This document shows positions 2,860 to 35,333 of a stretch of DNA of 35,333 nt, piece by piece. Source of the DNA: Priapulus caudatus (Eukaryota; Priapulida; Priapulimorpha; Priapulimorphida; Priapulidae); the NCBI RefSeq assembly GCF_000485595.1, contig NW_014577080.1, forward strand, positions 629,400 through 664,732. Reading direction: 5' to 3'. Below the pieces are notes generated by a model. That model saw only the letters and a program-made list of their open reading frames with translations. It did not search any database and was not told where the DNA came from. Within the stretch, counting starts at the first letter, position 1. Each line of letters starts with the position of its first letter. Position numbers and translations under genes: made by a program.

Positions 2860-5800
2860 CTGTAACATCATGTCAATGGTCACGTGCCAACAGTTACGAT
2901 GGAGCTTAGACCGACTCCAGGTGTCGTTGAAAAAATTAACCCTTACGAACTCAGGCACGGGGGGGGAGGGGGGGGAAGGTTGAACTCATTTTACCACATG
3001 CATATATCGGTATGATTATTGTTAATTCTCGATGGCTTATATTATTGATTCAGTCTAATGATACTGCACATCTTTCCTGCATCAAATGCATTAATTTTAT
3101 TATCCATGTAGAAAGAAGCCAAGATGAGACGATATGCATGCCGGCATCAGAGCAGAGAATTGTGAATTAACCATCCACTTAATCGCAATCAGTTGCTACA
3201 CACAGTGGCCAAACCGAGATAAAATGCTCTTAGTTTTACTGATTTTTTTAATGAGATCGTAGGCTCGAGTGATATCAAGTCGAGCAACATCTAGTCACTT
3301 GAAATACGAGCCTAATAAACATGTATACGTACCATCGTACGGCGCATTTTCTAGTTCAATGTCCACCACTTTACTCTTCTTTTTCTTTCCACTTCCCTGC
3401 TCGGGTGACGAGTGCTTCTTTGCACTGCTTGGATCATCAGCCTGCATTATTCAGAACGAAAAACATTTACTCACTCAACTATGTTCACTGCATGTTATGA
3501 ACAAAAGTTAATTGGCAATAAAAAGGTTTTGTATGGCATTTGTTTCTACGGATGGACGATGTAAACGAATTACTACGGCTCATGCATCATAGATAAGCAT
3601 TATAAATTATGAATATTAGTAAAAGTTGAGTTGGTTGAGTGAAAAAAAAACAATGCTTCTTAAATGGAAATAAATACAGCAACACATACATGCATGCTGG
3701 TGTACGTACGGTCTCGTACACGCACGCTCACCACTGCACACACGCACGCACGCACTAACGCAACCACACACGCACGCACGCACTAACGCAACCACACACG
3801 CACGCACGCACGCATCTACGTATGCACGTACGCGTATATAAGCCAACTACACATCCAAAAGCGCAACCGTCAGTAAGCAACCTCCATCTTGCACTGACCA
3901 CGTTATGTGCACTTTTACGCGTGGGAGACATTTCAGACAATAAACCACGAAACGGTCTGTGTTTTTAATGTGCAATCACCATCACTTGACCCTGACTGAG
4001 TAAACCGCGGCCAACGGAGAGCAAATAAAGCAGCTGCATAGACGGTCAATAGGAAACGGCTTTTTCTTAATTGAATCCGCCTATCACGTACGTGTCTCCC
4101 CTCCTCTCTTTAGCTGGCAGCGTGTCTTAGGAGTGGTGGCAACCGCAGCACAACCAATATTTTCCTAACGGGAAAAATCTATAGGGGCATTCTGGTCATT
4201 CCCCGCTGCAACCGTTTCTCTAGCGAATAGCTCATGCTAGCGTCCAAGCTAACGTTGATATCCACTGACGCGAGGTCCCTACGAGCCCTACTGCACTACC
4301 TCTCTCGGTTTGATCACGAGTTGCTTGCATGATATGGACAGTCAAGTCCGTTGTAAGATTCGTAGGAGTTTCTTGTGTGATTTCATGTGCTGACTGGTGT
4401 TTATCTAGACTTTTCTACAGTGCAACCCGCACCTAGACGCCCTAACAGATGTGTAGATTCGTGGTTGATCGTGGATTCTTATTATTCATTCACCTCTGTA
4501 ACTGCTCCTGATCTGTTAAATAGTTGCATGAAACCTACCGAGAATAATCTCTCCGCCTCGCTGTAGTGGCCCGTCTGTCCGACATCCTACCTCCCACTAT
4601 GCTACCCTCATTGTACTGCCCTAAAAATCCGTCTCCTCTGACTGTTCTGCCCTACACATCCCATTCCTTCACTGTTGTGTGCCCTGACCCCCCCCCCATA
4701 TTGTACTGCCTTAACCAGCCCTCTATATTGTACTGCCCTAACCAGCCCTCCATATTGTATTGCCCTACACATCCCCCGATATTGAACTGCCCTACCCACC
4801 CCCTCATATTGTATTGCCCTACCCATCCCCTCATATTGTATTGCCCTACCCATCCCCCATATTGTACTTCCCTACCCATCCCCCATATAGTACTGCCCTA
4901 CCCATCCCCCGATATTGAACTGCCCTACCCACCCTTGATATTGTATTGCCCTACCCACCCCCCATATTGTACTTCCCTACCCACCCCCTCATATTGTACT
5001 TCCCTGCCCATCCCCCATATTGTATTGCCCTACCCATTCCCCATGTAGTACTGCCCTACCCATCCCCCATATAGTACTGCCCTACCCATCCCCCATATTG
5101 TACTTCCCTACCCATCCCCCATATTGTACTTCCCTACCCATCCCCCATATTGTACTTCCCTACCCATCCCCCATATTGTACTGCCCTACCCATCCCCATC
5201 CCCTTCCCTCGCTGTACTGTCTTGCTGATACCCTTCCTACATGTGAGCACATGAGCACTGCTCCCGGCCATCATCGATTACCTGATCGCCCCACGCCATG
5301 TCTCCTGCATCCTCGATCTCAGGTGTGATAGAGAGAAACAGCAGCGACCTATCATCAGTGCCTTCCTCGTCGCTGTGGCGCGAGAAAAAGGAGAAAAACA
5401 AGTCCGTAAGCGATCGTCTACGACAGAGCGCAGTTTTCCTGCTTCGACACCCGGCTAGCAAACGCAGGCACGTGGCGAAGCGATGCGCTGATTGCTTGCG
5501 TTTGACATGCAAATGTAAAAATTGTAATGGCATTCTGGTGCGCGTATGCAAATTGACTCGCCGGCAACTTTAACAACCTTGCTAATGCGCTTTCAGTTTT
5601 ATTTATTACGTGATACTGTAAATGTTAATGTATATTATTCCATTTTCCCCCTTAAATGTCGTGCAGTGATTATTCAATACGTAGCATGAATAATAGAAGA
5701 GTTTACAATTTGATTTACTGTGATATAAAACCTACAGCATTCCGCTACATTTGAGTGAAATTGTGCTTGTTGTGCATGGTGTATTATTGACCTGGGCGAG

Positions 5801-8800
5801 AAAAATAACCACGCCTCCCCCCAGACCAGGCTGTACATGTTTATCACGCATGCACATCAAAATGGCGACTTCCCAGCACTTTCTTGCTAAGCATTGCTTT
5901 TTAAAACGTCCTATCGCCACAATGATTGGCTGAAGCTGCTTCGTCAATCACACCAGGCAGATAGGTCAAATACCAAGAGGCTAGTACAATAGTTTCAAGA
6001 ATATTTCAAGTGCCATATTTTGATCAGCTCAAACAAGTTTTGTATAAATAAACTATAAAAGTCATATATCTACCATTATGCCAGTATGGAGTTTTTCAAA
6101 CGCTTCATGTGCTACATAATGCAAAGATACATGCATCGGTACTCTTTACCTACCTGCTACAGAAAGCTGCTATAGCTTCCACGGTTACTACATCTACTTC
6201 TCCTCCCTCTTCCTCCTTTCCTGCACAGAAACATGTATACAATCAGCTATGCTTAACATGTGAACCACACACACAGAGTAACATCACAATTATTAGCCTG
6301 GTTAGCTACCTGATACTGCTATCCTACCTAAACACATGTAACATTATATTCCCTCTCCCGAGGACATATCTAAAAGACGTTTTGTGCACAATAAAAGAGG
6401 GTCGAATTTTTATTTTTTAGGGCAAGGAAAGTGTTGCCTTGGATTTCGTGAGAAATATACTTAGTTGGTAGGACACCAAGACAAACATTCCCTTCAATGG
6501 AGGGACACCGAAACAATTTACTTTTTCCTGGCACATGTAAGAGAGAGGGATACACGTACAACATGGAGCCATGGTAAGGGCACTGGGGCAAACAAAATGA
6601 AGTAGCCACAGCGATGTATTGTCATGGATATCGGTAAGATTACGGCGCCATGGCAAGTACGGACACAACCACTGCACTTTCAGTCAACCGCGTGGTGAAA
6701 TTCAAGCCATGCTGTAACCCAAGCTATCATGTATCATATGTCATCATGTATCATGTATCATGTATCATGTAACCCAAGCTATCATGTAGTGAATAGGCAG
6801 GTAAACACAATTCGTCACCCGATGCTCACAGTGTACAGTTTAACACACTAACCGGTTTGCTGCGACAACTTGAAAACAATGGCATGAAAAGAAACTCGCG
6901 CAACGTTGTCACGCAACACGACTCGACTGACTTGCCGTAGTAAACAAGCGAGAGAGTTCTTCGGTTCACCTAGCCGATTCCACAGGAGGTTTTACAGAAA
7001 GCATGGCACGCAGCCAAACGAGCGTGCACCGTATGTATATATATATATATACGTATTTATATATACCTGTGTATGTATACATGTGTATATGTATGTGTGT
7101 ATAGGTGTGTGTGTGTGTGCGTGCGTGCGTGCGCATGCATGTACGTACGTATGTATGTATATACGTATGTACGTATGTATGTTTGTATGCACCCTCGCGG
7201 GGAGCCCTGGGGGTAGGGGGCACGTACCCATGTGTGGTTCGGGGCTCTTGTCCTCATCCTCTATGTCAAACTCGCTCTCGCGTTCCTCGTACTCCACGTT
7301 CTCGTCCAACTCCTTGAAGTCGGGAGCGAACGCCGACCAGTTCTCGACCTGGTTCTGCGCCCACACGGAGACGACGCCGCTCGAGATGGACACGATGATG
7401 GGACGCACGGGATGCCACTGTAACAACACAGTCACTGTTACACCCACGCACGCACGCACACACGTACGCACGTACACATGTACACATGTACGCACCCACG
7501 CATGACACTATGATGGGATGCACGGGATGCCACTGTAACAACACAGTCACTGTTACACCCACGCACGCACGCACACACGTACGCACGTACACATGTACAC
7601 ATGGACGCACCCACGCATGACACTATGATGGGATGCACGGGGTGCCACTGTAACAACACAGTCACTGTTACACCCACGCACGCACGCACACACGTACGCA
7701 CGTACACATGTACACATGTACGCACCCACGCATGACACTATGATGGGATGCACGGGGTGCCACTGTAACAACACAGTCACTGTTACACCCACGCACGCAC
7801 GCACACACGTACGCACGTACACATGTACACATGTACGCACACACGCATGACACTATGATGGGATGCACGGGGTGCCACTGTAACAACACAGTCACTGTTA
7901 CACCCACGCACGCACGCACACACGTACGTACACATGCACACATGCACGCACACACGCACACACACATGCACACACACACACACACACATGCACACACACA
8001 CCAACGCACGCACACACGTACGCATGACACGATGATGGGATGCACGGGATGCCACTGTAACAACACGGTCACTGTTACACCCATGCACGCACGCACGCAC
8101 GCATATGCAGACAAATGCACGCACGCATGCACACGCAAACACATAAAAGCAACATAACAAAGAGAAGAAAAAACACTATGAGCATGTCCAGCTGCAAACA
8201 TTTCTGCCAGGCATCCTTTTTTTAAGAACGCAATTATTTCCACTCCCGTCGAATTCTCCTAGTCCTAGGGCTCGCACTTTACTGAGAAAAATTAGCCAAG
8301 CACTGTCAGCCAGGGGGCCGTTGTCAGAAACAAAATTATTCTTAACATTAGTCTTAACACTAACATTTTCTCGTAGACCGTCGACAGCACTTTGTTTCGT
8401 ATTGTTATGAGGAAATCTGCTACGATTTTTCATTCAGGTAACTTTGCAGCGTTTCTGTCGACAGTCTAAGAAAAAAATCAATGCTAAGACTAATGTTAAG
8501 ACTAATTTTGTTTCTGACAACGGGCCCCAGAACGCGAACCATATCTTATTACCACAGATATTTACCGAGCAGGAGGTATAATCCAACCCAACCCACACCC
8601 GACGTGCAACAAATTGAGGGTGCAAGATGACCTGTACAGCTACACATCCAACATCCAGCAACTCACAGCAACATTCAGCAACATTCAGCAACTCACAGCA
8701 ACATCCAGCAACAGTTCTCCTTTGGTGCCATGTAGGATCTTCACCAAGTTACCAATGCTCTTTTCCCAGATGTAGAGAGCGTGCTGACGGGCGGAGCCTG

Positions 8801-11800
8801 CACAGATGTACTCTCCATCTCCACTGAAAACGCATTTCTTCCACAGAGTCCTGTAATTCACATAGAGAATGTCTGATTGCAAATTGTTAGTTTCTATCGG
8901 GAAAAACCGAGTGACAGAACGCCCCTCTGAGAAAGGTCGTTACGGTTTGCTAATGTTTTTTTGGCTTTATGGATCTTTTCGAAAGAACAGGTGCAAGAAC
9001 TAGCTAACACTATAACCGAAATAAAACGCGTAACTGCAAATAATATCTTCACTTTTCTATAGACAGCATACATAAGATTTAGCCTTATCTATTTTTTATA
9101 GCATACATGAGTAGAATTGCATAAAAAATAGATTCATGTATGCTATAAAAAAATAGATAAGGCTAAACCTTATGTATGCTGTCTATAGAAAAGTGAAGAT
9201 ATTATTTGCAGTTACGCGTTTTATTTCGGTTATAGTGTAAAAACTACAACTAGCATACTGGCACATTCCCGATAAATAAACACAATGTCGAGTTTACAGC
9301 GTCTACACACAGTAAAAGTATAATAAACACAATACTTAAAATATAATCTAATAGAAACATATTAAATAGGGTGAAACTTCTGAAGTTTTACTACCATGTC
9401 CGACACTATATGCGAGGAGATGTAATTTATAAGTGGCTTTTACAGAGCTCTTGTGACTAATGAAATAACTGACGACCGGATGGCAAATAGCGTTATATGG
9501 TAACATTTTGCCACCGTTATTGCAGCTTCTGAAATTCATGACTGTGAAAGAGGCCAAAAAGGAAATCATAGAAAACTGAAGTTATTGGAAATGCTATTGT
9601 CCTTGGCTCTCAAACAATCGGGTTTATTTGACTTATACTAGATCTTTACGACATGACACAGATTTGTCTGGTTTTACAAACTTTAGAGAGTAGGTTTGCA
9701 CATTTTTCTTTTGCTAGGTAGCCCTCATTTGGTCAGCATATGCTCAGACATTACAATGATCGTCACGATATCGCTGTCACTTCATTCGAATAGTAAGAAT
9801 ATCCATACGTTCGTAATTAAACTCAGATGAAGCCATATAATATCTACAGGCATTGCAACAGACATATGGGTCTAATCACACGATAATAAATACAACGAAA
9901 CACACACACACACACACGTGCTTGCAGCCACTTTGAATAAATCCTGTCAAATTTACATAACATAGTTGTTGATTACAGATCAAGAATTATTTCCTGCCCT
10001 CCAGCACTTTTCCTGGGATTTTTGCCAATTCAATATTTCCGTGACGCTTGGTGTGTTCGTTAGAGGCTTGCTTGACACATGCCAGCTTTCACGTGTGCAT
10101 GTGATGCCGAGAAGATAGCAAGGTAAAGAAGGAAATTTTTTTTATAAAATTTGCCTTACGCGAATGCCAGCGTATAAAATATACATAAATGAATATCGCA
10201 TCAGCACCGTGGCAAACACAGTGACTAGCGCGCGACCATTTCTCAGATGTTCCCACACTACACGCTCGGTGCGAATATTTAGCAGATTTACAAGCGTTTC
10301 AATTACTGGTGGCACGACGACGACAGAAATACATGAGAGTATCAGCTGACATTTTTTAATCAGCGCGCCGCATTGATTTCTGGTTCTTCTCCGTGGCTTT
10401 GTCTGTTCCATCGCAGCCAGCACTCAGCTGCGGTGGTCGAGTCATCACAGCGGTTGTAATTATGATTTGCCCCACTTACTCAATGCTACACAACGGGAAA
10501 TTGAGTTCCATTGAAATCCACATAAATTCTGAGAAATGAGCTAGAACGGGAGTGGTGGTGGGGGGAGTCGGCTCTTAAAATTGGAATTCGTTTTTCGACG
10601 TCGCGAAGGTTGGGAGATTTGTCTTGAACACAGATTAATACCGTGTCACCTGCGGTGCAACTCATTAAGTTTCAACTGCAGCGACTATAATCCATCTCTA
10701 TGATGTCGTAGCAATTGTGAGAAGGAACTGATACTATATATATTATGTGTGTACGTGCATGCACGTGTGCGTGCATTAATGCGTGAGGCACTGTACCCGA
10801 AGATTTTTACGTAAACGGTACCATATATGAAAATCGTACCATATATGCAAATGAAGAGAACGTGCTATACATATACAGCTGAGCATGTCACAGGAAAATA
10901 TTCTAACCTGTCAAGAATATTACCAATCAACTAATGGCTCAATCACAAGTGATATTTTGATGTAATGCATTATCCCTTTTTTATCATCTTTTTTCCCAGG
11001 GCTGTGTAGGCAAGGACATTTCAACTTAACTATGAAAATGATAAAACTCTAAACCTTTACTAGACTACGGGCAGATTATTCACAATTCCCCTCATGTGTT
11101 CATCCCGGGACAAGAGGGACTGCTCAGAAGTACAGCAGTGCACAAATAATATCAAAACAAAATGATAATTCGAACAAAGGCAGTCTGACAAAATGAGTCA
11201 CAATCACTGCAGCTGATCCATGCAGCTAATCAGCATTATACAGTGATTTTATTCAATTTGTGGAAAAGTAGTCTATCAGGGTAGTACTGAATAGGGTGGA
11301 GGAGGCATACAGGAAGTGCTGCTCTCAGACTAAAGATGCAAGGACAACAGATTACGAGTTTAATGTTTCATATATGCAACAAGTGCCGCAGAGCGACAGC
11401 GCTCAACTGACGTGTACTGTAGCCGGGTATTCTTCTAATAAACTCACTGGCAACCGAATCAAGTGCGCTCTCCCGCCACCGTGTTCACGCTCAGAGCTAT
11501 ATCTAGGATACTACTAATACAGATCTGAAATCTATGATAGCTAGGCTTTGCTATACCGGTAGTACAGTAATAAAGATACAGCTGTGTAACTTTAATGACT
11601 TCGCTATATTAACATGTTATCATGGATATGCATCGAGTGCAAGCGTAGTGGTGGTGGGAGGAGAGTGGGGGGAGGGGGCGGGTGGAGGGGGCTCTAAGTC
11701 TAATAGCAAAAGCAGTTGCCGCAAGATGGCGCGTGCAAGTGTCATCAATAATCAAAGATGGCATCACCCTTCGTGCGTGATAACCTCACTCCATTGAGTT

Positions 11801-14800
11801 GCTGAAATCCTACCAGCTAAAATCCAAGTATATTCAGGCAGGCGAGAATTTCGCTCAGCTGTGAGTTAACACATCTGCATTGCAGGTTGCCAGGCAATAA
11901 TTATGATTAGAATAGTGCCAGTTCACCCCCATGCATGCGTAATGGGCTGCCCCCATGTTTTTGCCTATCCAGGCAAGCATTCAGGGTTCATTACAGTGTG
12001 CTAATACAGGGTGCTACTCAGGTGCTAATACACTGCTTTAGAAAATAATATGATTTAAGGAGCGTAAACCTTGTTCAACAAACATTTGCCTTTGTAATTG
12101 AACTGTGCAACTGTAGCCTCACATCCGCAATAGCAAAAGCAGTTCAGTCCTTTGTTAACAGTCAACAAATCCATGTTTAACCCTCCTCTTGAGGGTCAAA
12201 AGGTTATCTGACACTTACTCTTCGCATGTCAGCGGAAAGTACATTTTATGGTCCTTTCAATAAAGCCATAAAAATGGTAGGTCACCGCTGAAACAAAAAA
12301 GTTTTTCAATCGCTCCGTCAGACCATGTCCTCAGAAAATGTCTAAAATCTGCCCTATGCCCTATTGACCTTTGACCTGTGACCTCCAATTTCGGCACAGT
12401 GATGGCTTTTCCTACCATGATGCCATACACCGACTATCACGAGCCTAGGTCGAGCCGTTTAGATTTGTGCTGCAATTCTGCATTTCCTCCCTATACCTTA
12501 AGGAGGGAATGTTCCCCCTTCTTTTACACCTCTTTACCTTTGACCTTTGACCCCCAGCTTCAACATCCCAACTCGTTTTCAGATTACCCCCCACGTCCCG
12601 ACTTTCGAATCCGTACGTCGAGCCGTTTAGATTTGTGCCCAACTGTTGACGGACGGACGGACGGCCGGACGCACGCACGGACAGACCATCATGCGATTCT
12701 ACAAGCTGCATCTGACTATGTCAGATGAGCTAAAAACCACGAATACATGTACAGACAACTGATCACTGACACGACTATGATATAGAGGAAAAGTTGGTCT
12801 AGTAGCGCCACCTATTTATTAGACTTGAATAAATGAGATGCAACTGTCATTGCAGGTATACACTACAAAAACTAAATGATATCCAAGTAAACTAGAAACG
12901 AGCAGTTGTCGCCAACTACATGTATCACCCCATGATCTAGTATGAATGGAATATCTCTGTAAGGACGTAGAAGGCAGGTAAAGTTAAATAAGTCACAAAG
13001 CCAAAGGTTTGTTAGACAACTGGTCTGCCTTAGATGTGCAAGTATATGGAATCTGGTTAACCTAGGAGGCTGAAGAAGAAATGTAAGTCGATGGTCAAGG
13101 TCAAACTAAGGTCAAGGGCAGTGGTGGTTTTGGTATGCGACAGACCTTCTCCCCAAGATGTGTAAGCATACCAAGTTTGGTCGCGCTAGGTCAATTAGGG
13201 GCTGAGTTAGAGATCGGAAGGGAAATATAATCAAGGTCAAGGTCAAGGTGAAATAAAGGTCGCAGTCACCTGGTTTTGGTACTCTGCACACCTTCTCCCC
13301 AAGATGTGTAAGTATACCAAGTTTGGTAGCGCTAGGTGAATTAGGGGCCGAGTTACAGAGCGGAAGGGAAATATGATCAAGGTCAAAGTAAAGGTGAAAT
13401 GAAGGTCGCAGTGACCTGGTTTTGGTACTGTGCAAACCTTCTCCCGAAGATGCCAATCGGTTTTGGTGTGGGCGAAGGAGTCATCGTTGCCAGGGTGGAA
13501 AATGATCAACTTGGCAGGCACTCGGTCCAGCAGGACCAAGTGGCTCTGAGAAGTTACTGTCCTGGTCATAGGTACTGGTCCAGGATTTCTGTCATAGCAA
13601 AGTAATGACTCGGATGTGGGCAAAATAATCAGGCCACAATTAAACAATTTTTTGTTTGCCCTCACCCGAATGAAAGTGTGGTCGGCTTTTTTTTTGAGGG
13701 GGTCTTTTTACAAATTCAGCAATGGTGTCTACGTGCTCAGCGGTGTGCTTGTGTGGAGATACCTTTTATGTTCGCCTACAGATTTATATAAGTGTACATT
13801 GTACAGTGATACAATATACATATAAAATACTTTTAACAACTTGTGTTCATCAGAGTAAATTGTGCATGATTTTATTTCCAGACACACACGCCGCCCACGC
13901 ACGCACGCACGCACGGCACACATACGCCGTAATCTGGAAAATAAAAGCATTAAAATAAAAGGAACTTGAATTAAGAATAAAAATATCTTCTTAGCCACAT
14001 ATTAGTCTTTAAAGGAAAATAAAGTTAATCTGTCAGAGTTAGATCCATAATTATAGTTATCTAATATCTAAATTATAATATAGCGATTCCAATTCAGCGA
14101 AGTTTTGCTGTCGCCTCTCATACCAGCCGTGCCCGGCCACCCCCAGTACTATGTAATAATGAACATGTATGCCACCTGCGCACGCAGGCTGAAAGTGAAA
14201 CAACACATAATGCACTCGCTCCTCCCCCCTACTTCAATCAGTGCCGCCCAGCCAGCGGGCACCTACGCAGCCAGGCTGTGCATAGCCCGTCCAGGCTGTG
14301 CGACGGATTGTCTATACAGCCTGACACCCTTCCATACAAAAAACCTATCACCTCTGCAGATCGAGATAAATAACTCTGTATATCTCAAATAAAACTATTC
14401 CATTACCACCTTTGACTTGCCTTGTTTAAAAATATGAACGTTAACTCACAGTGCTCTGCTTCTAAACTAGAATTTATCTCTTAATTCACGGATTAATCTG
14501 CAATCCTCACAGCATATCAACTTTCAAATCAGCTTTACCCCATTTTACGCAGGCACGAAAACCCGAAACGGAATAATAGACTCGCTAGAAAATACTACAG
14601 AAATAGTGCGATGGCTCTCACGGCAATTACACACCAAAGCAAGTGAAATGATGTTCAGAAATGTGTGGGCCATTTGTAAAAAACCTTAGATGACATGTTC
14701 TCGATGTAGGGGTGGTTTACATAACGACCGCAGATCGTTTAATTTACTTTGTTCGATCCATTGCGGATTTTTAGTCACAGTCGGAATGATAGCAAACATG

Positions 14801-16156
14801 GTGGCAAATTCATAAATTGGTGCATTCGTCTAAAAAAGTTTGCCTGTAACCCGCGTAAGTACCCAGCGCATCGTAGCGCACTGATGGTTACAAGAAGGTG
14901 GACGTTTACTGATTCATTGGTATATCACATGTGTGGTGTTCTTTGGCGATACTTGGAATATAAGCAACTACGTCGTTAGGCTGCAGCGACCGTTTGAGAA
15001 CGGTATCCTAACCCTAGCGATACCGTTTCTGGAGCTAGGCCTTTGCATAGCTCTAGTACTATAGCCGCGTACAATTGCCGCAGACCTGCCACATTACAAA
15101 AACTTTTTAAAAAAATCGGGAGGTCAATAAAAATGGTGTGTCGGCCCTTGGTCGCGGTCCGGTCGGGTGGAGGGCAAACAAACAACATTTTTATTCATGC
15201 CTTCAAGTTTGGTAAATTTTTTTATTTCGCTGTGGCGGCGATTTAATCTAGTCGCCCGCCGCGACCAGCTGACACGAAGCGCAAGCAGTCGCCTCCGGTC
15301 GATTTTCTAATCGGCACACTGCGACCTGGAGAGACGACCCTAGTTTTCACGCTGGTTCCAATGGTAAAAACATTTTCTAGAAATATTGTAGAAACGCTGT
15401 AATTGTAGCTGTTTTCACCGATTGTCATGGATTTGGACACAGGCGCCGAATATAACATGTCCTATTATAATGTATATATTGTCGCTGTGTGCCAAATTTC
15501 ATGACAATTCGGCGTAAACGTGGCAGAAGTTACAGTTTTAGCATTTTTTTCGCACAAAAATGTTGTTACCAGGCAACGAGACTCCACCCAACAAAAACGA
15601 TTGCGTCTTCGCTTTACGATAACGACCTTCATGCGAAATGAAGATGATTCGGAGAAAAACCTGCAGCGGCGTAAGGAAATCTCTGGCGGCGGCGGCGCGG
15701 CCGAACTCAATTCGGGATACAATTATATTATATATATAACTGCTATAGCAGTAGTGTTATAGCCAAATATTAAATCTACCCGCATTGCCAGACAGTGGTT
15801 ACTGAAAGTGTTTAACCATCAAGAATAAAAACCGTTTTGCCTGGGAGCCAGAGACAACATTTTGCAATGATCGACAGGAATTCACCACGGACGACTTGCA
15901 CTAACTAACGTAGAACAGAATACGTACTTGTTAACAAGGTCCTGTAGTTTCTGTATTGGTTCCGGCTCGCCTTCCTTGCCACATGCCAGAACCTCCCCAC
16001 TCTCATACACGCGAATGATTCGATCAGCTGTATTCACAGAAAGCACCTAGACACACCAGCAGTTGACATCAGTCAAGTTTCAGTGTTATAGAGAGAACAA
16101 CACGATGTTAGACTCCTTATAATGGCAGTGTTTACTATACAATGTATGCCCCTCCC

Positions 16157-16199
<43 letters not shown>

Positions 16200-19100
16200 T
16201 CTCTCTCCTCTCTCCTCTCTCTCTGTCTCTCTCTATCTCCCCGTCTCTCTCTACTCCTTCTCTCCTCTCTCTCGTATCTATCTGCTCTCTCTTTCTCTCC
16301 TCTCTCTCTCTCTCCTCTTCCTGCCTCTCTCTTCTTCTCTCTCTCTCTCTCTCTCTCTGCCCCCTCTCTTTCCCCTCCCTCTTCCCTTCTCTATATCTCT
16401 CTGTCTTTCTCCCTCCCTCCTCCCCCTCTCTCCTCACCCTCTTCCTCTCCTTCTTTTCACACTCTCTCCATCTTCCTCTCCTGCCCTCTCTCTCTCCCTC
16501 TCTTCCTTCCTCCCTCTCTCCCTCTCTGTGTCAGCCTGTCTTTCAATCTCTCTGTACCTCTCTCACTCGCACTCTCTCTTTCCCTCTCTCTCTCCCTCTC
16601 TTTGCAATGATGACTACTTACTCTCCTCGCCGTGCAAACTCTATGGACTTGATAGCAGTTGTGTTGGATGTGCCGGTGGTGACACGAAAGGAAGCCACCA
16701 GCTTTAGTGTCTGCGTGTTCAGCACTAGTATCTTGCCACGTGCATTGCCCGTGAATATGTTCTTGCCCCGGCGATCAAATGCTGCCACTATGTTCAAATC
16801 AGACTGCGCAAATAATGAGTTCAATATTGTAAGCTACACTATGACACAATACAGATGAACATGTCACCTAACAACACAGCTAACTCTGATGATGTAGCAC
16901 AATTTCATTGAGTGGTATTGGTACTGTTACCATAGCTCATAGACATATAAATATGATTAAGTTATCACTAGATGCATAAGAAATAAAGACATACATACAT
17001 GCTGAATTATACTATTGAATTTCTATTATAGGTACTAGGGTTCCCCAGTAGATTTCATACCTTACATGTATGAATCAATTACGGTGCAACGGATGCTGGT
17101 AGGTATGATTACATTTTAATTGTAGGTACAATCAAGCTTGTATTGTAATTTGTATTCTGTTGTAAACGAAAATGTGTGGTTTTAAATGTGAATACCTCAT
17201 CGTCTAACGGAAGCACAGAGTGTTTGCCATTAGCATGTACCAGCACAGCTGCATGTTTCATAGGGCACACCAGGAACACGCCACTGTATAAATGAAAGAC
17301 AACATGAAACAGGTTAAGAAACGTATAATACACAACAGCAGCCATAGCACACAAGCATCTTTCGCCCACATGCACACATAAAACTACTTGTTTTTCCACG
17401 ACAGCTATTATTCTGATAATCGTGGTTTAATTTCTTGACAATGTACTATTGTTTCGGTCACTAAAGAGCTGTATTAAAAATGAGAAGAAAAATTAATTAT
17501 GAGACATAGAGAGGAGGTGGCCGTGCTGGCCGTGCTGGTTACCTATCACGTGGGTTGAACTGTACTTTGAGAACAGGTGATGGGAAGCGGTATCGAAAAT
17601 CGCAGTCCCCACTCTCTACATCCCAAATAGCGACGTTGTTATCTGTTGACGCACTTAATAGCTTGTACCCATCTCTACTCCAACTGCAACAAAAGCACAT
17701 AGCTACAGCTACATTAATGGCATATTTATACGACACGGTTACACGACGCATCATCCACTGCGTATTTATACGATGTACGCCTAATCCCTTCCGCAATTCA
17801 CATTTAAATTTTGCCAATATTACTTATGCACTTTCCTGCTGCCGCCATTTGTAGTTCATTAATCTAAAGTGAACAGACAGATGCACGACATATACAAATG
17901 GCAACGGATAATTTCTGCGCAGGCAATTTACATTTTAACATCCAACTCAAGCTGTGCAATTTCGCTTGTAGTCATTTATAGTTCGTTTCTCTAAAATTGT
18001 TCCTTTTTACATCATGTAAAGACATCCATTACATTTTTTTATATATTACCAGTCTCCTACTGGTCATATAACGAGTGATGCATTGACTACCTTAGGCTGC
18101 ACACAGGATGCACGTGTGCAGTCACAACTCTGGCAATGCCACGTGTCAGGAAGTCCCATACAACAATCCTTCCATCATTACAACCAACTGCTAGCAGTGT
18201 GCCTCGTCGGTTAAACTGACAGCAAAGAGCAATGCTCATGCAGTCTAGGGCACCATCGAAATCCTGTAAATAAGAAGTGCTAACGTGTAAAAATATTCAA
18301 AACAAAATGCGAAGCATACATATGCGACAAACACATTTCTGACAAGACGTTGAGCCGATATAATGAAGGCTGATCACAATAGTGCTTATACTCACTGTTT
18401 ATAATAAATCAAAGGAGAGTATGCTACATCATGCAAATTTAACGATATCAAACCTATCCTTCTCTCTATCAATCCTTGTCTGAATTGTTCACATACAGCA
18501 CATACAGATGTAATAATTATTTCAAGGCTAAAATTAACGAAGTGACGCATGTTATCCTGCACGTTATCCTCACGTTTTTTGAAGTGATTTCATATAAATC
18601 TGCTACTCACCTCTGGGTAGTTTTGCCCGAAAGTTTCTGAAAACAATAAAGAGTGTAATTGGTTTTTTTTCAAATTCTATATTACTCATGGCCATATATG
18701 TGTATGTGTATGAATGCGCGTGTACATGTGCACGCACACATGCACTGTAGTGCTAATAATTCCAGTTATATATTTGTATATATGCGTAGATGTAGCCCAT
18801 AAACTAGTGATGGGAATCGGCTGGAATTTCATAATCGATTATCGGTTTCCCTTAACCGATCGATAATCGATTATAATCGGATAATCGGTTAATAATAGCA
18901 TAGATTTAATTTAATCTTACTTTGTATATACAATTATACATAGCATTCAATATTATCATGTTTTATGATCATGTAGGCCTATTAACTCTGTGAAGGTTGC
19001 TGTATGTATATCAATGTCTGTTCCTATACAGTATTTAATCAATTTAAAAAGAAATGGTTTAAATGCCTTTATTAAAACATTAAAAGTTTTAAACAAACAT

Positions 19101-22100
19101 GATCAAGACATGTTCTTTATTATAGTAAGTAAGTTGTTTGTGTTCTAATAGTGTAGGCTGTGTAGCCGAGTTAATGTCCTGCCAATGGAATATCCTCTCC
19201 AACATAATGTAACAAACAATACGGAGAGTAGAATCTCATCTACGGATAACATCTGTGGGACAGTGTCAAACCAAAACAAAGACACTGTCCAATTTGTCCA
19301 TGTCTATAAGTACACTAGTACCGCTCTGCAATCAGACAGGACCTATGTTAACAGTGATTCATGAAGGTGTCCTCTGGACTACACACTGATGCACTTCTAC
19401 TTCGCTACCAATACATGTCCATGTTGCGATTTAGTAATTAAAAAAAAAAAAGTATGTATTTTGTATTTTTGATAATCGATTATTTGTTTTCATAATCGAT
19501 TATCGAATTTGAGACTATAATCGATCGATTTTCGATTATAATCGATCATCGGGACATCACTACCATAAACTGTACATAAACTGTCCCTACTACTACTAGG
19601 AATATTTTTTTAGCTCAACTTTTCTACAACAAAATAAATGGTCACAATTTGTCTCTTCCCCACATGATTAATAGTTACTTCTAAGTTCTAGCACAATCGT
19701 TCCATAACTTCCATTTATTGACTCAGAATTTTATTTAATCAAGGCAACTTCTACTGCACTATCAAATATGCTAAATTGGAATATCTGGTAATTAACACAG
19801 GTTTTCAGTGATCCAAAAGGCTTGTCTTCAGCAGCTGCTACCAAGCAACTTCATTCAGCTTGACAGACATCTAGACAGATTTTCGAAACTGTTGCCAACC
19901 GGTTAATTATATAGATTTATCATAAAAAAATAACGTGAAATCCCATTTTAAAGGGAGAGTTTACTCTAGGTTCTAGGGTTATTTTCAGCTATTTTAGGTT
20001 GTAATTACGCTACATAAAAAGTTTCATGGTTCAATCACCATTAGAAATATTTTTTAAAAATGTTTTAAAACTAACGACTACAGTTTGATTACAACGACGG
20101 TGGCGCCACTCAAAGCGTGCGATCTGATAAGTTGCGCAAAACCACTTTCCAGCCAAGGGCTACAGACCGAGGGTGTTTCTTATTTATTCATTTAAAAGCA
20201 AAAGGATTGTAATATCTTATAAACGACATATAGTTTCAGTTATTATATGGATAAATTTGCCCTAAAATGAATATCGTTCGGTTAAATCGCATTTAGGTAT
20301 AGATATAATTGCACTTTTGTGATTAGCCCTCGGTCTATAACGTGCAAAATAAATGGTCAAATACGCAACTTTTTCGGGGTGGCAGCACGGTCGAGGGTGT
20401 CATGGCGCCGTTCAAATTTCGTAGCGTTGATGTGTAATTAATTATAACAATTAAATTAGGTGTTAGGTAACAAATACGTGTGGGTATAGACGATTTGTTA
20501 TACAGTAAGTACAGTTGTATGCAGTAAAATCCTAGAGGCTACTGTCCCTTTAAATTAGGTATCTGGTAACAAATACGTGTGGGTATAGACGATTTGTTAT
20601 ACAGTAAGTACAGTTGTATGCAGTAAAATCCTAGAGGCTACTGTCTCTTTAAACTTATTCTGGGACTTAGGAACTGTTACAAATAAAAATTAGCCAAAAA
20701 GTCCTTATCCAGCTGTTTAGTATGTTAGCTTAAAGGTGAGTGATCAGTTGTCCTGCTTTGCATGGCATCAGTTTTAAGCACGAAAATATGGCAAATTTCC
20801 AGTTTGACACATACAAAATTAAAATTAAAAAACCTAATGTCAACAGGGGGCATGTTTGTTGTTTCTTTTACTGATCTCTGTATACTAACCGGATAGTGGT
20901 TACCTCATCATGGTTTTATTAGTTTATCACTAGCACAAAAAAATTCTTAACAGCATTGACCGCTATGATCACAATGTACGCAACTGCAGGGTGCGAAATT
21001 AATGCGAGTCCGGAGTCAAATACTCCCTGATTTGACATATGCAAGAGTCCGTGTGACTCCCTGAAAATTCTGCTATACTAACTAGTTCGTTCCAGAGTAC
21101 GGCCTCGAGGAATTACCGTATTTTTTCAGCTAATCTTTAATTTTGAACATCAGACTACGGACTCCCTCTTTTTGAGGGAAGGGAGTCCGCTGGACTCCCT
21201 TGTTCAAAAGTTCATTTTTACCCCTGAACTAGTATTCTCAATCAGGAGTTGGCATTACCAAAGGCAACAATAATGATGTACAAGTCAGTAGAATGACCAC
21301 AGGCATTTAAAACGTTGCGATAATACAATGATGGTAAATAAACACGAAATGTATTTGCTACCAATGTCTTAATGTTTCTCTACTCTCTTTCGCCTATCAT
21401 TAGTAATAATTTCCTGTAAATACCATTCAAATGCTTCTCTGTAACACACAATTTCACCTCATGCATGCCAGTGTGCACAAAAACAGAAATATAGAGCAGG
21501 TGGGAAAGCGTGAGTGCCAAATTCGCACAATTGGCTTGCTTCATTTTGTACCATCACAGCGAAAACACATAAAAAACCACCTCAATTTTGGTATCTACAT
21601 GTAGCCGAATGCTCATTTGTTTGAATTATCACCCTTCCCATTTGGTACAACTTAATTTACCCAGACAGATCTGGTAAATTCATGAGGAAAACTCCCACTC
21701 CACAGTATGTAAATGCTAGCAACTGCCTGTTTATTATCCAAAAGTCTCTAACCGTGCTACTCAAGACAATAGTTTGGCCAATGAATGTCCCGTGTGACAT
21801 CATTCCTATGAGAATCATGCAAGCTTGGATTGGCAGTCCTCATCTTGGAGCTCTGAAGAAGGGAGCGCTTGAACCCAGAAATTAAGAAACGCTGCACCAT
21901 TACTTATGTATATACAAGCAGTTGCTCCCATTTACAATGCCGTGGATTAGGAGTTTTCCTCGGGAATTTAACAGATCTCTGGGGGAATAAAGTTGTGCCA
22001 AAAAATGCAAGGGAGATAATTTTAAAAAGTGAACATTCTGCTACGCATGGATACTTAGATACCAAAATGGAGGTAGTTATTTGTGTATTTTCACTGTAAT

Positions 22101-22495
22101 GGAATTAAATGAAGTGTTGTGTGAATTTGGCGCTAACGCTTTTCCAACTGTGATCTTCTAAGTTCTATATTTCTGTTGAGTGTTGTTTGTGCACCGCTGC
22201 GTGCGTGCGGTGAGAAAAGAGCATTTGAACAGCATTAACGTAGAATTATTAGTCGATAGAGAATACATAAACATTGAAACTTTGAGAGTAAATACATGTC
22301 GTGTTTATTTACCATAACTTTTTATTGAAACGACTGTGAGTGTGAGTATGACGTTGAATCCGCGGGAATATTCCGATACTGACTGCGAGTAGTATACTAA
22401 TTATCTATCACTAATTTAGAGTCCTGGGTACGATAAGTACGATTTGAAAGTTGCGCAGTTCATTGAGTAAACTTACCTAATAATTCTAGATTCAT
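2723..22495 (-). CDS. RBBP5: Retinoblastoma-binding protein 5 (COMPASS/MLL H3K4 methyltransferase core subunit), 13 coding exons, complete
   Basis: RBBP5 joins WDR5, ASH2L and DPY30 in the nuclear core that activates SET1/MLL histone H3 lysine-4 methyltransferases. Exons in transcription order: 22477-22495, 18611-18636, 18091-18263, 17543-17683, 17196-17283, 16622-16803, 15928-16046, 8697-8850, 7228-7417, 6154-6220, 5282-5372, 3333-3441, 2723-2859. They sum to 1496 nt. One base appears to be missing in exon 7; with it restored the product is 498 aa (human is 538). The start MNLELLE and the WD40 propeller (about residues 20-325) match the family. An acidic ASH2L-binding segment [16 protein letters not shown] (343-358) is followed by a WDR5-binding-type motif EVDVVTV (372-378) at nearly human positions. 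The C-terminal tail is basic ([17 protein letters not shown]) and shorter than in vertebrates, ending RTDSY. All boundaries are GT/AG and phases are continuous except at the exon 7 lesion. Identity comes from remembered family sequence, not a search. Confidence 0.95.
3333..3441 (-). CDS. RBBP5: RBBP5 coding exon 12 of 13
   Basis: This encodes residues 418-453, a Ser/Lys-rich linker ([18 protein letters not shown]) and [11 protein letters not shown], matching the human NIELQGVPND. The acceptor is AATGCAG|GCTG and the donor is GATG|GTACGT. It joins in phase to exon 11, so no intermediate exon is needed, though a small one cannot be excluded. Confidence 0.88.
3735..3813. repeat. 28-bp ACGC-rich minisatellite in RBBP5 intron 11
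   Basis: Units containing ACGCACGCACGCACTAACGC recur with a period of 28 bp, about 2.8 copies, followed by a plain ACGC run. Confidence 0.85.
4594..5205. repeat. 26-bp CCCTACCCATCCCCC minisatellite
   Basis: More than 20 imperfect copies of a unit reading CCCTACCCAT-CCCCC-ATATTGTACTG. Variable positions are TATT/TAGT and TACTG/TACTT/TATTG. The left copies are degenerate and the right ones near identical, as expected when an array expands from one end. The minus strand (RBBP5 sense) has GGGGG, GGG and GGG runs in each unit. Period 26 is not a multiple of three and the unit has few stops, which explains the long spurious ORFs on both strands. Confidence 0.95.
5282..5372 (-). CDS. RBBP5: RBBP5 coding exon 11 of 13
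   Basis: This encodes S387-Q417. [20 protein letters not shown] corresponds to the human DEELEDSKALLYLPIAPEVE. The acceptor is CGCCACAG|CGACG and the donor is GATCAG|GTAATC. The exon ends in a lineage-specific GDMAWGDQ. Confidence 0.9.
5373..6153 (-). other. RBBP5: RBBP5 intron 10 (0.78 kb)
   Basis: No gene or clear repeat recognised between exons 11 and 10. Confidence 0.7.
6154..6220 (-). CDS. RBBP5: RBBP5 coding exon 10 of 13 (67 nt)
   Basis: This encodes [19 protein letters not shown] followed by CS (366-386), with split codons at both ends. It carries the WDR5-binding-type motif EVDVVTV (human EVDVTSV). The acceptor is TGTGCAG|GAAAG and the donor is AGCAG|GTAGGT. Confidence 0.92.
6712..6790. 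repeat. ATCATGT tandem repeat with flanking duplication
   Basis: Several ATCATGT units lie between two copies of GTAACCCAAGCTATCATGTA, in RBBP5 intron 9. Confidence 0.8.
7033..7192. repeat. Compound TA/GT/GTAT microsatellite
   Basis: Runs of TA, GT, GTGC and GTAT sit just inside intron 9, within 40 bp of the exon 9 donor. Confidence 0.9.
7228..7417 (-). CDS. RBBP5: RBBP5 coding exon 9 of 13
   Basis: This encodes W302-M364 plus one base of codon 365: the last propeller blade ([20 protein letters not shown]) and the ASH2L-contacting acidic segment [17 protein letters not shown]. The acceptor is TGTTACAG|TGGC and the donor is CATGG|GTACGT. The acceptor and the first 29 exon bases are multiplied five times in the adjoining intron. 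Confidence 0.95.
7389..8110 (-). repeat. 115-bp minisatellite carrying copies of the RBBP5 exon 9 acceptor and exon start
   Basis: The genuine junction (7389-7417 exon, AG at 7418-7419) is followed into intron 8 by five further copies of the same unit. Exon-like pieces lie at 7504-7532, 7619-7647, 7734-7762, 7849-7877 and 8026-8054. The first four intervals are exactly 115 bp; the last is 177 bp because of an expanded CA/ACGC stretch. Each copy has the acceptor TGTTACAG, 29 exon bases ([10 protein letters not shown] plus remainder) and the polypyrimidine-side sequence, then an ACGC/GTAC-rich filler. All decoys share the change CGT to CAT (Arg to His). Confidence 0.97.
7418..8696 (-). other. 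RBBP5: RBBP5 intron 8 with duplicated splice sites at both ends
   Basis: The donor side carries a decamer array that repeats the 5' splice site, and the acceptor side carries the 115-bp array repeating the 3' splice site. A terminal-inverted-repeat element lies between them at 8311-8530. Confidence 0.9.
8311..8530. mobile_element. MITE-like element with ~80-bp terminal inverted repeats
   Basis: The left end begins CAGGGGGCCGTTGTCAGAAA. The reverse complement of the right end begins CTGGGGCCCGTTGTCAGAAA, and the match continues through AACATTAGTCTTA and GTCGACAG. The interior is about 60 bp with no coding capacity. I found no convincing target-site duplication, so the superfamily is unassigned. 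Confidence 0.85.
8647..8710 (-). repeat. Decamer array duplicating the RBBP5 exon 8 donor
   Basis: On the sense strand GTTGCTGGAT/GTTGCTGAAT/GTTGCTGTGA units run from the exon end into the intron. The real donor GCT|GTGAGTTGCTG (GT at 8695-8696) is repeated as GCT|GTGAGTTGCTG 30 bp downstream (GT at 8665-8666). Confidence 0.9.
8697..8850 (-). CDS. RBBP5: RBBP5 coding exon 8 of 13
   Basis: This completes K250 and encodes residues 251-301. Landmarks are [39 protein letters not shown] and [11 protein letters not shown]. The acceptor is AATTACAG|GACTC and the donor is GTTGCT|GTGAGT. The last exon bases and the donor are repeated in the intron 30 bp further on. Confidence 0.94.
9007..9238. mobile_element. 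Near-perfect palindromic foldback/MITE element
   Basis: The two arms, each about 105 bp, are almost exact reverse complements. The outer ends are ACACTATAACCGAAATAAAA and its complement, the inner ends are AGCATACATGA, and a loop of about 20 bp separates them. AACTAGC occurs on both sides (8998-9004 and 9249-9255), a possible but asymmetric target duplication. No ORF. Confidence 0.92.
9898..9918. repeat. CA microsatellite
   Basis: An (AC)n run of about ten units. Confidence 0.85.
12200..12730. repeat. Dispersed-repeat-like element with GACCTTTGACC motifs and ACGG tail
   Basis: GACCTTTGACC occurs twice, and an identical 22-bp stretch (GTCGAGCC then GTTTAGATTTGTGC) occurs at 12449-12470 and 12617-12638. 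The element ends in an ACGG/ACGC run near 12650-12685. This is a noncoding half-duplicated structure typical of invertebrate interspersed repeats. The family and exact ends are not determined. Confidence 0.6.
13085..13470. repeat. 146-bp tandem repeat, about 2.6 copies
   Basis: Landmark CCTTCTCCCCAAGATG recurs at 13145 and 13291, and in degenerate form at 13437, with a period of 146 bp. Units also share AAGGTCAAGGTCAAGGT and ACCTGGTTTTGGTA. Probably part of an interspersed family. Confidence 0.9.
13884..13917. repeat. CGCA microsatellite
   Basis: Short run of ACGC units in RBBP5 intron 7. Confidence 0.8.
14980..15770. other. Possible degenerate mobile element in RBBP5 intron 7
   Basis: Composition changes here, with GC-rich patches such as GGCGGCGGCGGCGCGGCCG at about 15684. 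A hairpin GAACGGTATC...GATACCGTTT lies at 15000-15030, and CTGCTATAGCAG near 15742. I see no clear terminal repeats or coding domain, so this is only a suspicion. Confidence 0.25.
15928..16046 (-). CDS. RBBP5: RBBP5 coding exon 7 of 13, with an apparent 1-base deletion
   Basis: This encodes codons 210-249 and part of 250: ECFL, then [14 protein letters not shown] and [15 protein letters not shown]. From acceptor CTAG|G, codons TGC TTT CTG give the conserved CFL but the next triplet is TGA. The downstream [10 protein letters not shown] lies one frame off, so one base appears missing near 16035-16038. All other exons fit phase, so I favour a sequencing or assembly indel or an allelic lesion. 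The donor is AACAA|GTACGT. Confidence 0.87.
16047..16621 (-). other. RBBP5: RBBP5 intron 6 (0.58 kb)
   Basis: About 80% of this intron is the pyrimidine-rich tract at 16150-16604. Confidence 0.85.
16150..16604. repeat. CT-rich simple-sequence tract (GA-rich in RBBP5 sense)
   Basis: About 455 bp of almost pure pyrimidine, mostly CTCTCT with CCCT and TTC interruptions, in RBBP5 intron 6. It starts within 20 bp of the exon 6 donor. It generates long Ser/Leu or Arg/Glu ORFs that are not genes. Confidence 0.97.
16622..16803 (-). CDS. RBBP5: RBBP5 coding exon 6 of 13
   Basis: This encodes residues 150-209 plus two bases of codon 210. It contains [19 protein letters not shown] and the highly conserved [20 protein letters not shown]. 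The acceptor is TGCGCAG|TCTG and the donor is GGAGA|GTAAGT. About 20 bases past the donor a 450-bp GA-rich tract begins (on the sense strand). Confidence 0.93.
16804..17195 (-). other. RBBP5: RBBP5 introns 5 to 2, plain sequence
   Basis: Intron 5 (given here), intron 3 (17684-18090) and intron 2 (18264-18610) show no feature beyond splice sites. Confidence 0.7.
17196..17283 (-). CDS. RBBP5: RBBP5 coding exon 5 of 13
   Basis: This completes S120 and encodes residues 121-149, including the conserved LVCPMK segment and HSVLPLDDE. The acceptor is ATACAG|TGGCG and the donor is GATGAG|GTATTC. Confidence 0.92.
17543..17683 (-). CDS. RBBP5: RBBP5 coding exon 4 of 13
   Basis: This encodes S73-D119 plus part of codon 120, a WD40 blade with [23 protein letters not shown] and [14 protein letters not shown]. 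The acceptor is TTGCAG|TTGGAG and the donor is GATAG|GTAACC. Confidence 0.93.
18091..18263 (-). CDS. RBBP5: RBBP5 coding exon 3 of 13
   Basis: This encodes residues 16-72 and two bases of codon 73, the first propeller blade. Landmarks are [31 protein letters not shown] and AHVHPVCSL. It uses acceptor TTACAG|GATTTC and donor CTAAG|GTAGTC. Confidence 0.93.
18611..18636 (-). CDS. RBBP5: RBBP5 coding exon 2 of 13 (26-nt microexon)
   Basis: This completes codon 7 and encodes TFGQNYPE (8-15), matching the human SFGQNYPE. The acceptor is TTTTCAG|AAAC and the donor is GAG|GTGAGT. The exon is small and lies 3.8 kb from exon 1. Confidence 0.9.
18805..19562. mobile_element. Non-autonomous hAT-like transposon with 8-bp target duplication
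   Basis: This 758-bp element begins TAGTGATGGGAATCGG. The reverse complement of its right end begins TAGTGATGTCCCGATGATCG. It is flanked by identical 8-bp CCATAAAC (18797-18804 and 19563-19570). Both subterminal regions are packed with ATAATCGATTAT-type motifs, as expected for transposase binding clusters. No transposase ORF is present, so it would depend on an autonomous relative. The 8-bp duplication points to hAT; the family name is unknown. Confidence 0.88.
19952..20649. mobile_element. TTAA-flanked element (Kolobok- or piggyBac-like) with its right end tandemly duplicated
   Basis: The left end is TTAA|AGGGAGAGTTTACTCTAGG. The right end is CCTAGAGGCTACTGTCCCT|TTAA (TTAA at 20550-20553), so TTAA flanks both ends of matching inverted repeats. 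The last 99 bp (20452-20550) recur directly as 20551-20649 with few differences, giving a second end TCTCT|TTAA. There is no transposase ORF. TTAA targets with AGGG ends fit Kolobok better than piggyBac, from memory of those superfamilies. Confidence 0.78.
20452..20649. repeat. 99-bp direct tandem duplication
   Basis: Two copies (20452-20550 and 20551-20649) share AACAAATACGTGTGGGTATA and CAGTAAAATCCTAGAGGCTA. They differ mainly at GTTA versus ATCT and at CCC versus CTC. Confidence 0.95.
20987..21232. mobile_element. Repeat with CAGGG ends and AGTCC/GGACT palindromes
   Basis: The left end is CAGGGTGCGAAATTAATGC. The reverse complement of the right end begins CAGGGGTAAAAATGAAC. The interior has several GAGTCC/GGACTCCCT palindromic pieces. 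Short imperfect ends and no clear target duplication make this tentative. Confidence 0.45.
21331..22315. repeat. Large imperfect inverted repeat, two ~400-bp arms
   Basis: The left arm is 21331-21729 and the right arm 21912-22315, separated by about 180 bp. Matching landmarks (left versus reverse complement of right) are ATGGTAAATAAACACG, CAGAAATATAGA, GCCAAATTC.CACAA, TTTTGGTATCTA, GAGGAAAACTCC and GCAACTGC. The arms look roughly 70-80% alike by eye. No ORF of note. This is a transposon-like foldback or an inverted pair of one repeat family. Confidence 0.85.
22477..22495 (-). CDS. RBBP5: RBBP5 coding exon 1 of 13
   Basis: This encodes M1-L6 (MNLELL) plus the first base of codon 7. The donor is TTAG|GTAAGT. 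The start is chosen because MNLELLE is the invariant N-terminus of the family, and there is an A at -3. It is only 19 coding bases long, so gene finders will easily miss it. Confidence 0.9.
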
Positions 22496-22719
22496 GATTA
22501 GACAGTGATTATAGTATTAGCATTTCAATAAATACTTCTTGTTTAGATTTTTACTTTGTCGGCGTGCGGGTAGGTGGCGCGACGAAGGGGATGGTCAATT
22601 GTCGTTCATGCCTTTGCGTTTCTTTGCGTTGGGAGAAAGTTGTTACACGTTAGTCTGTGTTTGTTACTTGACCATGTATGAATTTATTTTACATTATTAC
22701 ATCTAATTTGCTGGCTAAG
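22496..22719. promoter_or_regulatory. Bidirectional RBBP5/POLR3B promoter and 5' UTR interval
   Basis: Two divergent start codons lie 224 bp apart with no other gene between, so both core promoters must lie here or in undetected upstream UTR introns. A GC-richer patch (about 22558-22590, with CGGCG, GGCGCG and CGACG) sits in AT-rich sequence, and I see no TATA box well placed for either gene. If RBBP5 transcription begins right of 22523, its leader contains a short upstream ORF on the minus strand at 22509-22523 (ATG, three codons, TAA). Transcription start sites cannot be read from sequence. Confidence 0.65.

Positions 22720-35333
<12,614 letters not shown>

Follow-up and report, generated by a model that had tools for sequence, protein, structure and literature searches.

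Do tandem repeats gather on the exon-intron junctions of this locus, as the first-pass annotation proposed in calling them systematically anchored there, and how does splicing deal with those that lie across a junction? The window, by which we mean the whole 35,333-nt stretch of Priapulus caudatus DNA that was analysed, carries RBBP5 and POLR3B. Gene models were built from protein matches using tblastn with human queries, giving the following features:

22495-22477, minus strand, RBBP5 exon 1, with its ATG at 22495, coding for MNLELL and joining exon 2
minus strand, RBBP5 exons 2 to 13 (our own numbering), from tblastn with human sequences
8697..8850, minus strand, RBBP5 exon 8 (...GELLLDVA), from protein matches
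7228..7417, minus strand, RBBP5 exon 9 (WHPVRPII...), from tblastn and a PDB chain alignment
22720 to 34944, plus strand, POLR3B, 23 exons and running on past the window end, from tblastn with human sequences
31464..31637, plus strand, POLR3B exon 16, with an array on either side, identical to the NCBI protein
34772..34944, plus strand, POLR3B exon 23, identical to the NCBI protein, which goes on with AFGGDK

The spliced POLR3B model, with an open frame of 957 residues, shows 100% identity to the NCBI entry 'PREDICTED: RPC2-like [Priapulus caudatus]', a protein labelled as predicted, which in addition holds 14 N-terminal residues and the exons past the window; two Branchiostoma proteins are among the matches listed for POLR3B, with 78% identity. 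A Priapulus-named RBBP5 was absent from the best 120 of 1457 protein matches, and the joint between RBBP5 exons 8 and 9 agrees with human RBBP5. GT-AG was found at all 68 junctions modelled independently of the arrays. The final set of 69 junctions consists of these together with the donor of RBBP5 exon 1, which has GT and carries no array, and is without any RBBP5 exon possibly hidden in 5282-3441. At the start of RBBP5 exon 7 (16046-16030, minus strand) a 1-nt frameshift breaks the joined reading frame, being either a sequence error or a true lesion. The RBBP5 ATG (22495, minus strand) and the POLR3B start codon (22720, plus strand) point away from each other with ~225 bp between them, and transcription of both genes seems to diverge from a single short interval (22477-22720).

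Tandem Repeats Finder (TRF) run on the window returned 52 rows, and merging of those with a period of at least 10 left 17 arrays, 10 of which qualify as strong (score of at least 100 and period of at least 20). Junctions are crossed by five of the 17 merged arrays, leaving 64 of the 69 junctions without one. The five arrays, and an outlying copy that belongs with the first of them, are:

7389..7958 (7389-8024 merged), minus strand, RBBP5 exon 9 acceptor array, 115 bp x 5.0 with 97% matches by TRF
8026..8084, minus strand, sixth, isolated and divergent copy of the RBBP5 exon 9 junction core with a decoy acceptor at 8054, from alignment
8649..8713, minus strand, RBBP5 exon 8 donor array, 30 bp x 2.2 with 94% matches by TRF and a 10-bp sub-unit
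31275..31465, plus strand, POLR3B exon 16 acceptor array of two 102-103-bp copies, 102 bp x 1.9 with 85% match by TRF, and from alignment
31628..31929, plus strand, POLR3B exon 16 donor array of three 100-104-bp copies starting 10 nt inside the exon, 100 bp x 3.0 with 84% match by TRF, and from alignment
34940..35333, plus strand, POLR3B exon 23 donor array of four 95/81-bp units and a partial fifth, starting 5 nt inside the exon, 99% match by TRF, cut by the window end

The annotation had listed six such arrays, and comparing the TRF output with the independent gene model bears out the five above. They take in 29 (RBBP5 exon 9), 17 (RBBP5 exon 8), 2 and 10 (POLR3B exon 16 acceptor and donor) and 5 (exon 23) exonic nucleotides. 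Their units differ in both length and sequence, in agreement with the suggestion of a recurring process instead of one repeat family. The sixth, put forward as a weak case at the acceptor of POLR3B exon 22, was dropped: the match between 34311-34355 and 34661-34705 ends before the junction, its copy sits one intron further on, and an equally high score was reached by 9.3% of 300 random window pairs.

The other five strong arrays cross no junction, and the first four of them lie at least 85 bp from any modelled one:

13125-13452, unit of 146 bp
20451-20653, unit of 99 bp
4680-5197, unit of 26 bp
3737-3811, unit of 28 bp
28974-29543, TTACRTCTC-like array of 570 bp by TRF, pyrimidine-rich on the coding strand, which stops 22 bp short of the acceptor of POLR3B exon 12

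Repeats of other kinds also occur in the RBBP5 introns. Intron 7 has an inverted repeat (9007-9097 and 9148-9238) with 91-nt arms, 99% complementary and 50 nt apart, which resembles a recent foldback or MITE-type element. In intron 1 a ATCGATTAT-rich region (18816-19525) has weak inverted arms (77-78%), its ends bearing a resemblance to those of a hAT-type element. A degenerate (GA/CT)n tract of 445 bp (16157-16601) starts ~20 bp into the intron after the exon 6 donor.

When analysing the RBBP5 exon 9 array, the unit was found to consist of 29 exonic and 86 intronic nt, the true acceptor lying at 7417/7418 and copy acceptors at 7532, 7647, 7762 and 7877. Units 1-4 share 96.5-99.1% identity with one another, while unit 5 is 83.5-86.1% identical to these; the sixth copy retains a 59-nt core (-30 to +29) with 93.2-94.9% identity to the others, and its flanks have diverged. 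In all five intronic copies the codon for the Arg of the exon (CGT), a residue also found in human RBBP5, reads CAT (His). This argues against coding constraint on the copies, and their exonic part seems free to drift. At the other end of the same intron (intron 8, 1279 nt), where the exon 8 array is unrelated to that of exon 9, the true donor follows 8697 and the decoy 8667, with an identical 9-mer at both.

In POLR3B, the first exonic-like base of the decoy acceptor upstream of exon 16 is 31361 and CACCAG|GC is retained, the exonic overlap of this array being marginal (2 nt by TRF). On the other side of the exon, decoy donors follow 31741 and 31841 (TGG|GTGAGC and TGG|GTGAGT), and the functional copy is the most different of the three, with 76-77% identity against 84% between the two spares in an alignment that includes unduplicated exon sequence. 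At exon 23 the decoy donors follow 35039, 35134, 35215 and 35296, and AACAG|GTAATA is identical at all five sites. Each full exon 23 unit has AACAG|GT at both ends and TACTAAT just 5' of the AG, and so resembles a tiny intron.

Altogether 13 decoy splice sites were identified: four donors at exon 23, two donors and one acceptor at exon 16, five acceptors at exon 9 and one donor at exon 8. The GT or AG is intact in every one. Scoring with weight matrices made from the remaining junctions in the window gave nine decoys exactly the score of the true site, and the remaining four were lower by 1.0-2.0 bits, inside the range of true sites. Translation through the decoys ran into a stop in all nine translated cases, and for the four exon 23 decoys readthrough (GGT AAT ACT CAG TAT ATA TAA), read from the sequence, likewise ends in a stop. 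As the annotation had proposed, it is the copy touching the exon that yields the correct protein: the POLR3B model reproduces the NCBI protein sequence, so that at all three POLR3B arrays the annotated (PREDICTED) Priapulus protein agrees 100% with exon-proximal splicing, and the RBBP5 joint equals that of human RBBP5. In all five arrays the site giving the protein adjoins the exon and makes the longest intron. Judging from the encoded proteins, the spliceosome would choose the exon-proximal site, and since this choice gives the longest intron it would be consistent with exon definition and not with a shortest-intron rule. A search of the window for known RNA elements gave none at gathering threshold.

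Intact decoys could also mean that the extra copies have a function, either as a splicing buffer or in regulation, or as recursive (AG|GT) splice points of the kind suggested by exon 23, whose units are flanked on both sides by AACAG|GTAATA; tandem dual-specific AGGT sites are used in human UBC (PMC10809524). We regard such a function as improbable. The acceptor formed at the four intronic unit ends of exon 23 scores 2.66, which is below all 34 true acceptors scored, the remaining four junctions are not AG|GT, and a stop results if a decoy is used as a simple alternative site. Given the acceptor scores, the case for recursive splicing at exon 23 is weak.

The high identity of some units raises the question whether the extra copies exist at all or came about through collapse, stutter or merged haplotypes in the assembly. 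Near-identity between units (99% at exon 23, and 96.5-99.1% among units 1-4 at RBBP5 exon 9) makes copy number hard to assemble, and in these two places it could be an artefact; the frameshift in RBBP5 exon 7 indicates that small errors may exist. As an account of the arrays in general, however, assembly error is very unlikely, as stutter does not yield exon 16 arrays matching at only 84-85%, a sixth exon 9 copy standing apart with flanks of its own, or derived changes common to the decoy copies.

To address the anchoring itself, junctions were compared with the rest of the intronic sequence. Systematic anchoring was not borne out by this comparison: the first intronic base lies in a strong array at five of the 69 junctions (7.2%), whereas strong arrays take up 11.5% of the intronic bases overall. 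When the arrays are shifted circularly along the introns, 7.93 covered junctions are expected, compared to the five observed (P=0.79). Cover by strong arrays is 7.2% at 1-15 bp from a junction, 8.1-8.3% at 16-120 bp, 12.6% at 121-240 bp, 17.8% at 241-1000 bp and 7.7% beyond 1 kb, so beside the 69 junctions of the window it is not higher than deeper in the introns. Of 68 junction words five are duplicated, compared to 10.3% of background words; once simple sequence had been taken out by a complexity filter, the count was four of 65, where the background stood at 9.1% for intronic and 7.4% for all noncoding words.

A different picture emerges when arrays and not bases are counted. Five of the 10 strong arrays span a junction, where 0.81 would be expected if up to 29 exonic nt are allowed (P=0.0006), 1.45 if up to 60 are allowed (P=0.0084) and 1.63 under a null in which single units are placed anywhere not wholly exonic (P=0.012). 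With all 17 arrays the junction-spanning tests give P=0.0067 and 0.051. An array edge lies within 30 bp of a junction for six of the 10 strong arrays, compared to 1.20-1.34 expected (P=0.0004-0.0007), and for six of all 17, compared to 2.15-2.57 expected (P=0.014-0.032). Without the exon 23 array, which is cut by the window, the unit test gives P=0.036, and without the short exon 8 array P=0.049 (both with 68 junctions). Use of 68 or 69 junctions leads to the same verdict, with spanning-array P values of 0.0003-0.046 and 0.0006-0.051, and circular-shift P values of 0.82 and 0.79, respectively. Exonic bases make up less of the units than uniform breakpoints predict (P=0.007, rising to 0.010 if the exon overlaps are taken slightly longer), which is compatible with selection or anchoring close to the exon edge.

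The excess in array counts is what would be expected if exon ends themselves seed tandem duplication, through splice-signal composition, a nucleosome edge, co-transcriptional R-loops or replication stalling. Besides the five spanning arrays, the sixth array that ends close to the exon 12 acceptor and the few bases by which units enter exons fit such true anchoring. Per base, on the other hand, junctions are no more duplicated than their surroundings, whether measured by words or by cover, and the junction feature was picked after inspection. The array-count tests also depend on the null and presuppose that any array extending into an exon is purged as a rigid block. In our judgement the per-base comparison is the fairer one, because a duplication spanning a junction always leaves one intact junction. 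True anchoring is consequently considered unlikely, even though the array-level excess and the short exonic share of the units allow for it or for selection near exon edges. What can most safely be said is that in the window splice junctions are reached by arrays at roughly the same rate as the rest of the intronic DNA, and that arrays at junctions have to be accommodated in splicing through use of the exon-proximal site.

The reading we favour, and consider probable, is that these are mirage-type minisatellites produced by random tandem duplication and tolerated because one junction is left intact and splicing goes to the exon-proximal site. Local tandem duplications would arise throughout the introns of this repeat-rich stretch, presumably by slippage or unequal exchange. 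A breakpoint falling a few bases inside an exon would leave one intact exon-intron junction and displace the spare junction copies into the intron. These spares would retain splice signals about as good as those of the true sites, of which the spliceosome would take the exon-proximal one. With the protein unaltered, such arrays may be neutral and could grow by unequal exchange, as ordinary minisatellites do.

If five in 69 junctions is typical, a figure extrapolated from two genes, thousands of near-identical competing splice-site sets are possible per priapulid genome, and tandem duplication across junctions, which has been proposed as a way in which introns are gained, would not be limited to amphioxus among animals. 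Each junction array would also be a direct test of splice-site choice, for which exon definition predicts the longest intron and a shortest-intron rule does not. A bolder proposal, which we hold to be doubtful, is that minisatellites of some animal genomes are seeded preferentially at junctions, a property arisen or kept in cephalochordates and priapulids, and that thousands of Priapulus junctions carry competing identical sites; if preferred seeding were true, these junctions would amount to an experiment of nature, genome-wide, on spliceosomal choice between equal sites, in which the exon-proximal site would win every time.

The first-pass annotation likened the arrays to the mirage minisatellites of amphioxus, and in anatomy this is right, junction-spanning units with exonic bases being found in five of five arrays and GT or AG kept in 13 of 13 decoys. 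According to excerpts of the amphioxus globin paper (PMC3087553), BflGb6 and BflGb9 carry mirage arrays at 5' and 3' boundaries, many of the copies contain splice signals, RT-PCR suggests no interference with splicing, haplotypes differ in copy number, copies at the cluster edge in BflGb6 escape homogenisation, and Adh3 and further loci are cited as mirage cases. Acceptor-side arrays, which the annotation had thought to extend the known picture, are thus already described in those excerpts. In amphioxus PGBD5, repeats of 60 and 108 bp occur at splice sites and troponin C (TnC) is cited (PMC3902484, in part), while the excerpted text on the huntingtin scaffolds mentions tandem repeats only as assembly trouble (PMC2206037). 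Within the compass of these excerpts, Adh3, TnC, BflGb6, BflGb9 and PGBD5 share with the Priapulus arrays tandem units spanning donors and acceptors, spare copies in the intron and splice signals that are kept, and in the structural features compared the single Priapulus haplotype analysed matches the amphioxus description. They differ in phylum (Priapulida, Ecdysozoa) and genes, in the unrelated arrays at both ends of RBBP5 intron 8 and in POLR3B exon 16 being flanked on both sides; moreover, normal splicing is suggested by RT-PCR for the amphioxus globins, while in Priapulus we infer it from protein alone.

Two further systems invite comparison. Intron gain by tandem duplication (the Rogers model) has a case in potato RdRp, where the duplication likewise crosses an intron-exon boundary (PMC4974935); the potato duplicate made a new intron, whereas the Priapulus copies remain within an old one. 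Intron gain was rejected for the Priapulus arrays, the spares lying inside existing introns and their use leading to stops. In human UBC, as in the POLR3B exon 23 array, AGGT marks the unit borders, but the UBC units are coding and their sites used (PMC10809524), whereas at exon 23 the units consist of AT-rich intronic sequence and their acceptors are very weak.

Mirage minisatellites of priapulids were not reported among the literature matches listed, which does not prove their absence from print. Junction-spanning repeats, previously known mainly from amphioxus, extend to a distant phylum, and a clear preference for splice sites is not supported. What is new compared to the amphioxus cases is the phylum, the two genes, the presence of unrelated arrays at either end of one intron, and a count of junctions from which a rate (5/69) can be derived.
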